The notes under the pieces are model-generated. The model ran no database searches. It saw only the letters and a program-made list of their open reading frames with translations, and was not told where the DNA came from. A DNA stretch of 64,000 bases from the NCBI GenBank assembly GCA_012729765.1, contig JAAYCM010000074.1:62001-126000 (forward strand), written 5' to 3'. Shown in pieces: positions 30,888-35,593 of this stretch (positions are counted from its first letter, which is position 1; each line of letters begins with the position of its first letter). The DNA is from Chloroflexota bacterium (GTDB lineage Bacteria > Chloroflexota > Anaerolineae > Aggregatilineales > Aggregatilineaceae). A program made the translations under genes and the position numbers.

Positions 30888-31997
30888 TCAGATCAGGTCC
30901 ATGCCGAGCTGGCCGCCATCGCGCAGCATGGCAATGATCTTGCGGTCGGTGACCGGGAAGGCGTAGGCGCTCAGCTCGTCGAGCGTGACCCACGCCCAGT
31001 CCGCGACGCCGAGCGTCTGCGGGGTGCCGCCGAGATAGTCGCACGCGAAGGCATAGAGCGTGATACGGAAATGCGTATAGCCGTGCCACACCACGCCGAT
31101 CTGCTCTCCGACCGCGATCTCCAGGTCCAGCTCCTCGCGGATCTCGCGGCGCAGGCACTCGCGCAGCGTCTCGCCCGGCTCGCGCTTGCCGCCGGGAAAC
31201 TCCCACAGCCCGCCGAGCAAGCCTTCGGGGCGGCGCTGCGCGATCAGAATCCGGCCATCGCTGCGCCGGATGACCGCCGCCGTGACGTCGAAGTGGGGCG
31301 TCTTAGCGCGCGGCGGCCTGACCGGGCGTTCTTCCTGCACGCCAAGCGCCCGCGCCGTGCAGTGCGCCGCGATTGGACAGTGAGGGCAGTCTGGCGATTT
31401 GGGTGTGCAGATCACGCGGCCCAGCTCCATCAGGCCCTCGTTCCACGCACCGGCCCGGCCAGGGGGCACCAGCGTCTCGGCCAGCGCCCACAGCGCGTTT
31501 TTGGTCGCGGTTTCGGTGACATCGTCCGCTACGTTGAACACACGCGCCAGGATGCGGATCACGTTGCCATCGAGCACGGGCGCATCGACGCCAAACGCGA
31601 GGCTGGCAATCGCCCCAGCGGTATAGCGCCCGATGCCCGGCAGCCGCCGCAGGTCCGCAACCGCCGCCGGAAAACGCCCGCCGTAGTCCGCCGCCACGAC
31701 CTGCGCGGCGCGGTGTAGATTGCGCGCCCGGCTGTAGTAGCCCAGCCCTTCCCACAGCTTGAGCACATCATCCAGCGGGGCCGCCGCCAGCGCTTCGACG
31801 GTCGGGAAGCGCGCCAGAAAACGCTCGTAATACGGGATCACGGTGGCGACCTGCGTCTGTTGGAGCATGATCTCCGAGAGCCAGATCGCATAGGGGGCCT
31901 GGGTGCGCCGCCAGGGCAGATCGGCCTTTTCGCGCTCGAACCACGCGATCAGGGCATCGTGCAGGGCGAGGACGTTCTTGGTTTCGAGTGGGTCCAT
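30888..31997 (-). CDS. mutY: A/G-specific adenine glycosylase with NUDIX domain
   Basis: MutY removes adenine mispaired with 8-oxoguanine. The 369-residue protein has the HhH-GPD domain with SEIMLQQTQV (catalytic Glu), LPGIGRYTAGAIASLAF and the catalytic Asp in VLDGNVIRIL. An intact [4Fe-4S] motif C-x6-C-x2-C-x5-C follows. The C-terminal 140 residues form the NUDIX-like 8-oxoG recognition domain, where GGKREPGE-REIREEL is unusually well preserved as a Nudix box. The ATG overlaps the stop of the upstream methyltransferase gene by 1 nt. Confidence 0.95.
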   Translation of the reverse strand: MDPLETKNVLALHDALIAWFEREKADLPWRRTQAPYAIWLSEIMLQQTQVATVIPYYERFLARFPTVEALAAAPLDDVLKLWEGLGYYSRARNLHRAAQVVAADYGGRFPAAVADLRRLPGIGRYTAGAIASLAFGVDAPVLDGNVIRILARVFNVADDVTETATKNALWALAETLVPPGRAGAWNEGLMELGRVICTPKSPDCPHCPIAAHCTARALGVQEERPVRPPRAKTPHFDVTAAVIRRSDGRILIAQRRPEGLLGGLWEFPGGKREPGETLRECLRREIREELDLEIAVGEQIGVVWHGYTHFRITLYAFACDYLGGTPQTLGVADWAWVTLDELSAYAFPVTDRKIIAMLRDGGQLGMDLI

Positions 31998-32707
31998 TAC
32001 ACAGTTTCCCGGCGCAAGAGGCTATAACGGTTCAGGTCGCCGCTGCGCCCATCGGCGCGATAGGATGCGATCTCAGTCAGGCCGGTGGCCCGGACCAGCG
32101 CAACATATTCGGCGTCGTCTACGTAGTGACAGTAACGGATCGCGCGCTCGCCGCGCCGCCAGTCGAGCAGGAAGTCGCCCGCTTCGGCCTGGAGATCATC
32201 CGGCCAGGGAACGATCCGCTCGCGGAAGCGCGGGTATTCGTAGAAGCGCCACGCCGAGAACGCCAGCAGTCCGTCGGGCCTGACGCGTTGCGCCAGATCG
32301 CGCAGCAGGGCGATGCGTTGGGTATAACCCGGTATGTGGTGCAGCACGCCGAACAGCGCGACCAGATCATACGGCGCGCCATCCGGCAGGGCTTCCCGCA
32401 GCAGATCGCGCGCTTCCAGCCGGGCATTGAGGCCGTGCAGCGCCGTGCGGGCACGTGCCAGTAGCTCCGGGCTGCTGTCGATCCCGGTATAGGTGACACG
32501 CTCCGCGCCGAGATGCTGCGCCAGGAACAGGCCAAAGCGCCCATTGCCGCAGCCAACATCCAGCACGCTGAGTGAGGCAGGCAGATGGGGCAGCAGCGCA
32601 TCCCAGCCCGGCCAGGGTCGCCCGCGCGACTCGTCGAAGCTGCCGGCGGTGATGCGGTAGAATTCCTGATTAATTTGATTCAGCCATTCAATTGTTCGCT
32701 CATTCAT
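31997..32707 (-). CDS. Trm9/ALKBH8-like SAM-dependent methyltransferase
   Basis: The 236-residue class I methyltransferase has the SAM motif VLDVGCGNG (48-56) and LFGVLHHIP (118-126). Outside that core it keeps features I recognise from eukaryotic Trm9/ALKBH8: an N-terminal SFDESRGRPWPGW (compare FSxTRxxPWP), the HH pair at 123-124 and the C-terminal ERAIRYCHYVDDAEY (compare RYYHLxxxGE). Trm9 methylates the carboxymethyl group at wobble uridine. It diverges from elp3, which makes that group's precursor, across only 44 nt. Wobble-uridine methylation is inference; other RNA or small-molecule substrates remain possible. It is coupled to mutY by TAATG. Confidence 0.75.
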   Translation of the reverse strand: MNERTIEWLNQINQEFYRITAGSFDESRGRPWPGWDALLPHLPASLSVLDVGCGNGRFGLFLAQHLGAERVTYTGIDSSPELLARARTALHGLNARLEARDLLREALPDGAPYDLVALFGVLHHIPGYTQRIALLRDLAQRVRPDGLLAFSAWRFYEYPRFRERIVPWPDDLQAEAGDFLLDWRRGERAIRYCHYVDDAEYVALVRATGLTEIASYRADGRSGDLNRYSLLRRETV

Positions 32708-32751
32708 GCTAACATCTTGGTGTGGGCCGCGTATTGTAACGCAGGGTAAGC

Positions 32752-34587
32752 ATGAGACATTCGCCAACTCTGAATCTGGATCAGTATCGGGAGCCGTTGA
32801 TCGCGATCTTACACGCTGTTGTGCGCGATCCCAACCTGTCGCGCCAGCAGTTGACCCGGCTGCTCAAGCAGCATCCGAAGGACGGGCGCGGCCTGTTCCG
32901 GCGGGATGAGCTGATCCGCGCCTATCGTGAGTTCGCCGGGACGGGCGATCTGCCGCCGTTTGATGCCGCCGTGCTCGAACGTCTGCGCATGAAGCCGGTA
33001 CGCACAATCTCCGGCGTGACCCCGGTCACAGTGCTGACCAAGCCTTTCCCGTGCCCCGGTGAATGCATCTTCTGCCCGAACGATGTGCGGATGCCCAAGA
33101 GCTATCTCTCCAATGAGCCGGGCGCGCAGCGAGCGGAGCAGAACAGCTTCGACCCCTATCTGCAAACCTACTCGCGGCTTTCGGCGCTGCGCAACACCGG
33201 CCACCCCACCGACAAGATCGAGATCATCATCCTGGGTGGGACATGGTCATTTTACCCGGAAACGTATCAAATCTGGTTTGTCAAACGCATTTTCGACGCG
33301 CTGCACGACTTCGGCGGCGGCATCGACCATACCGACGCGGTGCGCACGGCCCTGCGCGAAGCCTCGCAGCTTCACCCGGAGCGCAACCTGGCGCGGGTGA
33401 GCGTAGACGGGACGCGCCTGGACCGGAGCTATAATCAGGTTGTGCAGTCGATCTACCAGGACGAGATGCGGCGCTCACGCGAGCAGGCCCGCGCCATCGC
33501 GCGTGGAGAACGCCCGCGCGGCCTGACCGACGAGTATGCCACCTGGGACGAACTGGAAGCCGCTCACCGCCAGAACGAACAGGCGGCCTGCCGCTGTGTC
33601 GGGCTGGTGATCGAGACGCGCCCCGATCATATCAGCGTGGACGAGGTGATCCGCGTGCGGCGGCTGGGCGCGACCAAAGTGCAGATCGGGTTCCAAAGCC
33701 TGAGCGATGACGTGCTACGGCTCAACCGGCGCGGGCACGATGTCGCGGCGGCGCGGCGGGCGGTGCGGCTGCTGCGCCAGGCCGGGTTCAAGATTCACGG
33801 CCACTGGATGCCCAACCTCTACGGCTCGTCGGTGGCGGCGGATATCGCGGACTACCGGCGGCTGTTTGACGATCCCGACTTTCGCCCGGACGAGTTGAAA
33901 ATCTACCCGTGCTCGCTGATCGAGAGCGCAGAACTGATGCAGCGCTACCGGGATGGCTCGTGGCGGCCCTATTCGCATGACGAGTTAGTCGAAGTGCTGC
34001 TGGCGTGCTTCGAACACACGCCGGAATACTGCCGCCTGACGCGCGTCGTGCGCGATATTCCCGGCACGGATATCGTCGTGGGCGACCTGACCACCAACTT
34101 CCGGCAGATCGTCGAGCGCGAGCTTGAGGCTCGCGGCGGGCGCAGCGAGGATATCCGGTCGCGCGAGATTCGCGGGCAGCGGGTGGCATCTGAGGCGCTG
34201 CGCCTGGACGAGCAGTGGTACAGCACCGCGATCGGGGACGAGGTGTTTTTGCAGTATATCGCTGCCGACCGCCGGATCGCGGGCTTTCTGCGGCTGTCGC
34301 TTCCGCACGAAGCACCGATCCTGGACGAACTCAGCGGGGCGGCGATGGTGCGCGAAGTGCACGTCTACGGGCAGTCGCTCGCACTGGGCGAAGACTCGCC
34401 GGGCCGGGCGCAGCACAGCGGCCTGGGCACGCAGTTGATCGAGCGCGCCGTTGAGATCGCGGCGGCACAGGGGTATGCGCGGCTGGCGGTGATCTCGGCG
34501 GTTGGCACGCGGGCCTACTATCGCAAGCGCGGCTTTGAGGATGGCGCGCTGTACCAGGTTCGTCCGCTTGCGCCGCCACGGACATAA
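32752..34587 (+). CDS. elp3: Elp3-family tRNA uridine carboxymethylase (radical SAM plus acetyltransferase)
   Basis: The 611-residue protein has an N-terminal helical tRNA-binding region (1-90) and a radical-SAM cluster motif CPGECIFC (Cys101, 105, 108). The Elp3-specific SFDPYLQTYSRL and ILGGTWSFYPETY follow. The C-terminal GNAT/KAT domain has QHSGLGTQLIERA (about 554) and ISAVGTRAYYRKRGF. Elp3 uses acetyl-CoA and a radical mechanism to make cm5U at wobble uridine of tRNA; bacterial Elp3 works without the other Elongator subunits. All three cysteines and the KAT core are intact. It diverges from the Trm9-like gene. Confidence 0.93.
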   Translation: MRHSPTLNLDQYREPLIAILHAVVRDPNLSRQQLTRLLKQHPKDGRGLFRRDELIRAYREFAGTGDLPPFDAAVLERLRMKPVRTISGVTPVTVLTKPFPCPGECIFCPNDVRMPKSYLSNEPGAQRAEQNSFDPYLQTYSRLSALRNTGHPTDKIEIIILGGTWSFYPETYQIWFVKRIFDALHDFGGGIDHTDAVRTALREASQLHPERNLARVSVDGTRLDRSYNQVVQSIYQDEMRRSREQARAIARGERPRGLTDEYATWDELEAAHRQNEQAACRCVGLVIETRPDHISVDEVIRVRRLGATKVQIGFQSLSDDVLRLNRRGHDVAAARRAVRLLRQAGFKIHGHWMPNLYGSSVAADIADYRRLFDDPDFRPDELKIYPCSLIESAELMQRYRDGSWRPYSHDELVEVLLACFEHTPEYCRLTRVVRDIPGTDIVVGDLTTNFRQIVERELEARGGRSEDIRSREIRGQRVASEALRLDEQWYSTAIGDEVFLQYIAADRRIAGFLRLSLPHEAPILDELSGAAMVREVHVYGQSLALGEDSPGRAQHSGLGTQLIERAVEIAAAQGYARLAVISAVGTRAYYRKRGFEDGALYQVRPLAPPRT

Positions 34588-34648: not shown

Positions 34649-35593
34649 ATGCCGAAATCGCGTCAAGATTCGGACCAAGAGCAGGGACGCGGCTCACGCA
34701 CCGTGATCACGGTACGCCCAACCAGCCGGCGCGAAACACTGCGCCAGGTTGAGTCTGGCCTGGCGGCGAACGAGGCTGACTCTCGACCGGCAGACAAGCG
34801 CATCACACCGCCAACCGTCGCCGCACCATCCCCCACCGCACCGGCTCCCGTCGTCCGGCAGCGGCGCGGCTGTATGGGCACGGTGGCGCTGTTTGGTGGG
34901 CTGTCGCTGTTGGTGCTGACGCTGGCCCTGGCGATCATGATGCTCGCGTTCACCCAACAGATGACCAGCTTCTTTGACGATCCAGTCGATAAGGTGCTGG
35001 AGATGTTCGGGATCGATCGCGGTAACACTGAGGCGGAAGTCGTCGATACCCAGTTGATCCTGCTCGGCATCAAAGACATGGCGATGCTGGAAACCACGCG
35101 TGGCGACATCCTGATCGAGGAAACGGTCGTGCAGCCGAAGACATTTTTGCTCAAAGACGCGCGGCTGCGGGTGCAGTACCTGGGGCGCGTGACCGCCGGG
35201 ATCGACCTGTCACAGATCACTGAGGCGAACATCCTGGAGCAGACCGATGACCGGCTGGTGATCCAGCTTCCGCCTGCACAGATCACTGGCTGCTATCTGC
35301 AATATCACGACACTCTCGAAAACACCTGCGGCACCAATGTGTTGGGCATGGCCGATTGCAGCGCGACGTTCGAGCGGCTGAACGAGACGGCCTACGAACG
35401 CGGCATGCAAGACCTGCTGCGCACCGCCGAAGAACTGGCGATCCTCGACATCGCGTATGACAACGCCGAAACCGCGATCGCGGGTCTGCTGCGCGATCTC
35501 GGCTTCGAGACGATTGAGTTCCGGCACAGCGACCCGCTGCCGATCACGGCAGAAAGCTGCCGGGTGGGCACGCCGCAGACGATACCCGATTAG
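34649..35593 (+). CDS. DUF4230-family membrane-anchored protein
   Basis: The 314-residue protein has a disordered N-terminus (1-70) and one membrane helix (about 78-102). The external domain contains the DUF4230 features LETTRGDILIEE and DARLRVQYLGRVTAGIDLSQI (split here) and a PPAQITGCYL segment. It also has three Cys (in TGCYL, NTCGT and ADCSA) that may form disulfides. Family function is unknown. AGGAAGG precedes the ATG. Its stop codon overlaps that of the convergent lipM-like gene by 4 nt. Confidence 0.75.
   Translation: MPKSRQDSDQEQGRGSRTVITVRPTSRRETLRQVESGLAANEADSRPADKRITPPTVAAPSPTAPAPVVRQRRGCMGTVALFGGLSLLVLTLALAIMMLAFTQQMTSFFDDPVDKVLEMFGIDRGNTEAEVVDTQLILLGIKDMAMLETTRGDILIEETVVQPKTFLLKDARLRVQYLGRVTAGIDLSQITEANILEQTDDRLVIQLPPAQITGCYLQYHDTLENTCGTNVLGMADCSATFERLNETAYERGMQDLLRTAEELAILDIAYDNAETAIAGLLRDLGFETIEFRHSDPLPITAESCRVGTPQTIPD

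Follow-up and report, generated by a model that had tools for sequence, protein, structure and literature searches.

An elp3 gene divergently paired with a Trm9-like methyltransferase gene in Chloroflexota: a probable bacterial route to cm5U34 and mcm5U34

Introduction

In textbook bacteria, the wobble uridine of tRNAs (U34) is modified by MnmE/MnmG, and 5-methoxycarbonylmethyluridine (mcm5U) is regarded as a eukaryotic nucleoside and, more recently, as an archaeal one. Elp3, the enzyme upstream of Trm9/ALKBH8 in eukaryotes, was itself long debated as a histone acetyltransferase. Here, we analysed a stretch of 64,000 nucleotides (nt) from a Chloroflexota bacterium (Anaerolineae; Aggregatilineales; Aggregatilineaceae), hereafter the window, in which all positions are numbered. 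We describe two of its genes, elp3 and a gene for a class I S-adenosylmethionine (SAM) methyltransferase resembling Trm9, together with their catalytic residues, their conserved divergent pairing, their co-occurrence and the exclusion of MnmG. A sequence-only reading had noticed that both genes start 44 nt apart in opposite directions, which the two open reading frames (ORFs) bear out, and had proposed that they form a bacterial pathway for 5-carboxymethyluridine (cm5U) and mcm5U.

Related systems are described from archaea. Archaeal Elp3 and Trm9 homologues were noted in 2008 as clustered in Sulfolobus (PMC2584109), with an Elp3/Trm9 gene cluster given for S. solfataricus (PMC2584109, PMC5372719), (m)cm5U34 is reported in Haloferax volcanii, and the use of acetyl-CoA by bacterial and archaeal Elp3 is triggered by tRNA (PMC6367351). 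In two reviews, a Trm9-like enzyme was stated in 2017 not to be found in bacteria (PMC5372719) and, in 2020, bacterial Elp3 was given for Dehalococcoides only, with xcm5U34 there lacking direct evidence (PMC7663514). Among the titles and the first lines of abstracts of the open-access literature that we scanned, none described a pairing of Elp3 with Trm9 in bacteria; an earlier report may exist elsewhere.

Like the archaeal Elp3 and Trm9 homologues of Haloferax and Sulfolobus, the window's Elp3 stands without Elongator partners; unlike them, the pair is bacterial, divergent and exclusive with MnmG, and its Elp3 falls in a distinct clade marked by an insert of ~75 amino acids (aa). With the Elp3 of Dehalococcoides mccartyi (DmcElp3, 5l7j) it has in common the phylum, the catalytic residues and, in that lineage (five loci read), a divergent Trm9-like neighbour. 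However, DmcElp3 lacks both the N-terminal extension and the insert, and the neighbour in its lineage is of another Trm9-like type (RYYH). As for the methyltransferase, it resembles yeast Trm9-Trm112 and human ALKBH8 by its class I SAM fold, the Arg of its RxxPWP segment, its HH motif, a probable two-stranded lid with an RY.H motif (here from a model) and a C-terminal Asn (here by position), and we propose that it acts downstream of Elp3 as they do. It differs from them as a bacterial stand-alone gene beside elp3, with a Cys at the position of Tyr243 and a low identity. Finally, MnmE-MnmG, which makes 5-carboxymethylaminomethyluridine (cmnm5U34), addresses the same tRNA position, presumably with the same decoding role, but through unrelated enzymes and chemistry.

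A candidate two-step pathway

We think it likely that elp3 and the methyltransferase gene supply the enzymes for two successive steps of a bacterial pathway that modifies the wobble uridine, first to cm5U34 and then to mcm5U34. Elp3, without the other Elongator subunits, would use acetyl-CoA and a 5'-deoxyadenosyl radical to carboxymethylate U34 at C5, giving cm5U34. The Trm9-like enzyme would then methylate the carboxylate at the expense of SAM to give mcm5U34 or, where MnmA also acts, 5-methoxycarbonylmethyl-2-thiouridine (mcm5s2U34). Such a pathway would stand in for MnmE/MnmG. We infer these reactions, the tRNAs they act on, the final nucleoside and which step comes first from the comparisons that follow.

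Divergent pairing of elp3 and the methyltransferase gene

Among 101 genomes of the window's order, the methyltransferase was found in 87, Elp3 in 96 and both in 86. The two genes are adjacent in 31 of these 86 genomes, and divergent in all 31; they lie apart on the same contig in seven and on different contigs in 48, several of which are fragmentary assemblies. Within the window's family, the divergent pair is present in every genome that yielded both genes (15/15), the gap ranging from -2 to 62 nt. Outside Chloroflexota, a scan of public genomes gave 15 matched methyltransferase loci. Twelve of them have elp3 as a divergent neighbour, 57-147 nt separating the matches, while the other three comprise a locus of Acidobacteriota with a 1669-nt gap, one at a contig edge and one that shows no elp3. 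The divergent pair is encountered there in Myxococcales/Deltaproteobacteria, Verrucomicrobia and Patescibacteria, at 36-48% identity. Moreover, rapidly built trees for the two proteins display the same main groups. Because the genes are divergent in 15/15 genomes of the same family and this layout is met again in other phyla, their pairing is not due to chance.

In five Dehalococcoidia-like genomes (L160-L164), which belong to the lineage of the crystallised DmcElp3, a different methyltransferase abuts elp3, again in divergent orientation. The adjacency that the sequence-only reading rested on is thus strongly conserved in the window's order, in these genomes and in other phyla. This second type carries an RYY motif (RYYH/RYYR-type; 4/5 of the proteins read), a VPW-like segment and a C-terminal RN (5/5), and the best PDB match of its profile is the Trm9 structure 5cm2_Z (3.3e-20). 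Run against 201 Chloroflexota genomes drawn evenly from the phylum, this profile matched 46 genomes at 1e-15. The top 18, at 3e-93 or better, are all Elp3-positive, and their gene lies divergent from elp3 at a distance of 7-153 nt; the remaining matches are at 1e-20 or weaker, mostly cover the methyltransferase core and include some Elp3-negative genomes. Since the scores drop sharply after 3e-93, only these 18 genomes were counted as having the second type, and the weaker matches (to 1e-15) were left out as generic.

Co-occurrence with Elp3 and exclusion of MnmG

In the same 201 genomes, a Trm9-like gene was detected in 37 of the 38 that have Elp3, against 0 of the 163 that do not (Fisher 1e-39, shared ancestry ignored). 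The window-type methyltransferase, for which the query came from the window finding itself, was detected in none of the sampled Chloroflexota genomes that lack Elp3. Conversely, MnmG is present in 80 of the 201 genomes and Elp3 in 38, and none has both where 15 would be expected (Fisher 3e-10, shared ancestry ignored). MnmG was over the cut-off in 0/101 genomes of the window's order, which gave only weak matches to ~450-aa proteins that we take to be TrmFO, and in 0/15 non-Chloroflexota genomes holding the window-type methyltransferase; control genomes behaved as expected in these searches. This mutual exclusion of Elp3 and MnmG lends additional support to the cm5U/mcm5U pathway first read from the sequence. 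The pair very probably constitutes such a bacterial pathway, standing in for MnmE/MnmG and working like Elp3 and Trm9.

An Elp3 with conserved catalytic residues

The window's Elp3 matches the NCBIfam model TIGR01211 with 469.9 bits (curated cut-off 350). Its best PDB relative is DmcElp3 (5l7j, 6.1e-97), and the Elp3 of M. infernus (6iad) is also among the best. A single chain holds the Radical_SAM, Radical_SAM_C and Acetyltransf_1 domains; both the intact CX3CX2C motif (CPGECIFC, residues 101-108) and the lysine acetyltransferase (KAT) domain (GNAT, residues 488-595) were recognised correctly from the sequence alone. According to the study on M. infernus Elp3, mutants of E207, K302 and Y304 lose cm5U formation entirely or nearly so (PMC13315578). 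As 51 is added to the chain numbering of 6iad to obtain that of M. infernus, these three residues correspond to E288, K383 and Y385 of the window's protein, which therefore keeps all three residues shown to be essential (Table 1). We propose that this Elp3 makes cm5U34 on tRNA.

Compared with DmcElp3, it carries an additional ~80 residues as an N-terminal extension. The ~75-aa insert is absent from the Elp3 proteins of Dehalococcoidia, of archaea and of family f3, a group of the window's order considered below. It is present, often in a shorter form, in the clade that the window's Elp3 shares in the tree with those of Myxococcota, Patescibacteria and others, in which 66-129 residues separate GGT from ETRPD versus 49 in the Dehalococcoidia and f3 proteins. 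Possibly, this insert has a role in tRNA or partner binding.

A likely member of the Trm9 family

The Trm9/ALKBH8-like marks named in the sequence-only reading are all found in the methyltransferase, namely SFDESRGRPWPGW, HH (in LHH) and RYCHY. With the single sequence, Pfam and NCBIfam recognise a generic class I methyltransferase only, the NCBIfam matches being below their cut-offs. With a profile of 25 orthologues, the best PDB match is Yarrowia Trm9 (5cm2_Z; 1.3e-12, 50.8 bits; next 41.5), and it comes first again with a wider profile of 39 homologues (9.6e-14, 54.5 bits; next 44.9). In the PDB, the best match of the profiles is a tRNA U34 methyltransferase, and not a member of a non-tRNA family. 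Among the PDB profile alignments shown, that of Trm9 alone spans RxKPWP, the HH motif and RYYH.

In yeast Trm9, R29, H115, R241, Y243 and N271 are described as influencing tRNA binding and turnover (PMC5372719). Four of these five important residues appear to be kept in the window's protein, the Arg, His and Arg by alignment and the Asn by position (Table 1). We assume that yeast H115 is the first His of HH; this assignment and the C-terminal register are tentative. The AlphaFold2 model of the methyltransferase (predicted local distance difference test, pLDDT, 95.4) has short strands at residues 178-182 and 190-194, in a position consistent with the two-stranded lid described over the active site of YlTrm9 (PMC5372719). 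Altogether, the profiles and the aligned residues indicate that the methyltransferase likely belongs to the Trm9 family, with one active-site residue that differs.

Points against the pathway and alternative explanations

Several observations weigh against the proposed pathway or temper the evidence for it. First, the Fisher values ignore common descent, and the count of 37/38 includes a Dehalococcoidia type whose query was built from genes beside elp3 and whose 18 members were picked by score, so that this co-occurrence is less independent than its window-type part. Second, family f3 (L145-L151) keeps an Elp3, with ~50% identity and no insert, though no Trm9-like methyltransferase was detected in it. 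Third, both Elp3 and MnmG are missing from 83 of the 201 Chloroflexota and the lack of MnmG alone is therefore not diagnostic. On the side of the methyltransferase, generic class I enzymes dominate the single-sequence PDB search, and Foldseek against the PDB matches >1300 methyltransferases with Trm9 at rank 11 (22% identity), so the fold is consistent with Trm9 but not discriminating; indeed, a generic class I fold by itself proves no Trm9 membership. Lastly, the position of Trm9 Y243 is occupied by an invariant Cys (C193) in the 39 window-type homologues, and the equivalent of N271 is lost in Anaerolineales-type relatives.

The last two features bear on an alternative in which the cm5U34 made by Elp3 is indeed the substrate of the methyltransferase, the product being another cm5U-derived group or the methylation falling on another site. 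The Cys, the loss of the Asn and three residues invariant in the window-type family (E175, D178 and Y228, 39 homologues) would all suit a different product. Nevertheless, the equivalents of R29, H115 and R241 are invariant and the Dehalococcoidia type has RYY and RN in most or all of the five proteins read; the Trm9 site is therefore largely kept, and we consider this alternative unlikely. It is less likely still that the enzyme methylates tRNA or rRNA at another target and is merely co-regulated with elp3. It is true that one class I methyltransferase fold is readily mistaken for another and that about half of the genomes in the order have the two genes on different contigs, but the restriction of the window-type enzyme to Elp3-positive genomes among the Chloroflexota sampled, the adjacency that recurs across phyla and the agreement of the groups in both trees all argue against this reading. 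Chance neighbourhood of a protein acetyltransferase and a small-molecule methyltransferase, which could invoke the generic families that score the single sequence and the histone acetyltransferase history of Elp3, is strongly disfavoured by the pairing over several phyla and by the MnmG exclusion, and hardly credible in view of the tRNA-triggered use of acetyl-CoA by Elp3 (PMC6367351), of Trm9 as best profile match and of the other neighbours, mutY and the DUF4230 gene, being kept in near relatives only.

Significance of the pair

The successive formation of cm5U34 and mcm5U34 by Elp3 and a Trm9-like enzyme would give bacterial Elp3 a purpose, and the pair predicts which bacteria use the pathway, namely those with Elp3 and without MnmG. 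Many bacteria without MnmG carry such a head-to-head pair, which suggests that they rely on a two-gene form of a route otherwise described mainly in eukaryotes and archaea. Tentatively, it is even possible that a two-protein mcm5U34 pathway, made of Elp3 and a Trm112-independent Trm9-like enzyme and travelling as a divergent pair, has replaced MnmE/MnmG in Chloroflexota, Myxococcota, Patescibacteria, Verrucomicrobiota and Acidobacteriota. A version of the pair is also present in the lineage of Dehalococcoides, from which the known structure of a bacterial Elp3 comes, and small stand-alone enzymes are now at hand for testing Elongator/Trm9 chemistry.

Other pathway components

The Elongator subunit Elp1 was looked for in the genome of the window and not found; one of 21 relatives gave a weak beta-propeller match, and Elp3 was not detected in that relative. 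Weak, marginal Trm112-like ORFs (~90-140 aa) are present in most relatives, including some in which the pair was not found, so that they do not track it. MnmA was over the cut-off in 9/13 genomes examined and not found in that of the window; 2-thiolation is therefore possible in relatives. The search for MnmE, confounded by other GTPases, placed only one genome (G002) above the cut-off. In this genome, a full-length MnmE is encoded at G002:C42:5756-7063 while MnmG was not found; the MnmE gene may be contamination. In several genomes of family f3, the neighbours of elp3 are RluD-like and BirA-like genes.

Gene layout

Table 1. Features of the elp3/methyltransferase locus, in window coordinates
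Feature	Positions	Strand	Description and basis
elp3	32752-34587	+	Radical SAM and GNAT (KAT) enzyme, 611 aa, proposed cm5U34 maker; TIGR01211 and DmcElp3 5l7j matches
Elp3 CPGECIFC	33052-33075	+	Residues 101-108, [4Fe-4S] ligand motif CX3CX2C; sequence, alignment
Elp3 extra segment	33319-33549	+	~75 aa, residues ~190-266; gap in PDB alignments, motif spacing
Elp3 E288	33613-33615	+	In ETRPD, equivalent to M. infernus Elp3 E207; alignment to 6iad
Elp3 K383-I-Y385	33898-33906	+	Equivalent to M. infernus Elp3 K302 and Y304; alignment to 6iad
Trm9-like class I SAM methyltransferase gene	31997-32707	-	236 aa, proposed to convert cm5U34 to mcm5U34; 5cm2_Z profile match, AlphaFold2 model
Methyltransferase R28	32624-32626	-	Counterpart of R29 in yeast Trm9; invariant across the 39 homologues
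Methyltransferase H123-H124	32336-32341	-	Counterpart of H115 in yeast Trm9; invariant across the 39 homologues
Methyltransferase R191-Y-C-H194	32126-32137	-	Equivalent to yeast R241-Y-Y243-H; R191 invariant in 39 homologues, C193 at the Tyr243 position
Methyltransferase N226	32030-32032	-	Probable equivalent of yeast N271; invariant in 39 homologues, by position, beyond the HMMER alignment
Divergent intergenic region	32708-32751	no strand	44 nt, ATG to ATG
mutY	30888-31997		Downstream of the methyltransferase gene
DUF4230 protein gene	34649-35593		Downstream of elp3

The ATG start of the methyltransferase is backed by homologues that start with MN or MD at the same place. Between the two genes, no sigma-70-like site was found, and the intergenic sequence is not conserved and holds no shared motif within the family. 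The start of mutY overlaps the stop of the methyltransferase gene, as TAATG. Considered as further members of the unit, mutY and the DUF4230 gene were rejected, as they are kept in near relatives only; this limited conservation is a useful internal contrast to the pairing of elp3 with the methyltransferase gene.

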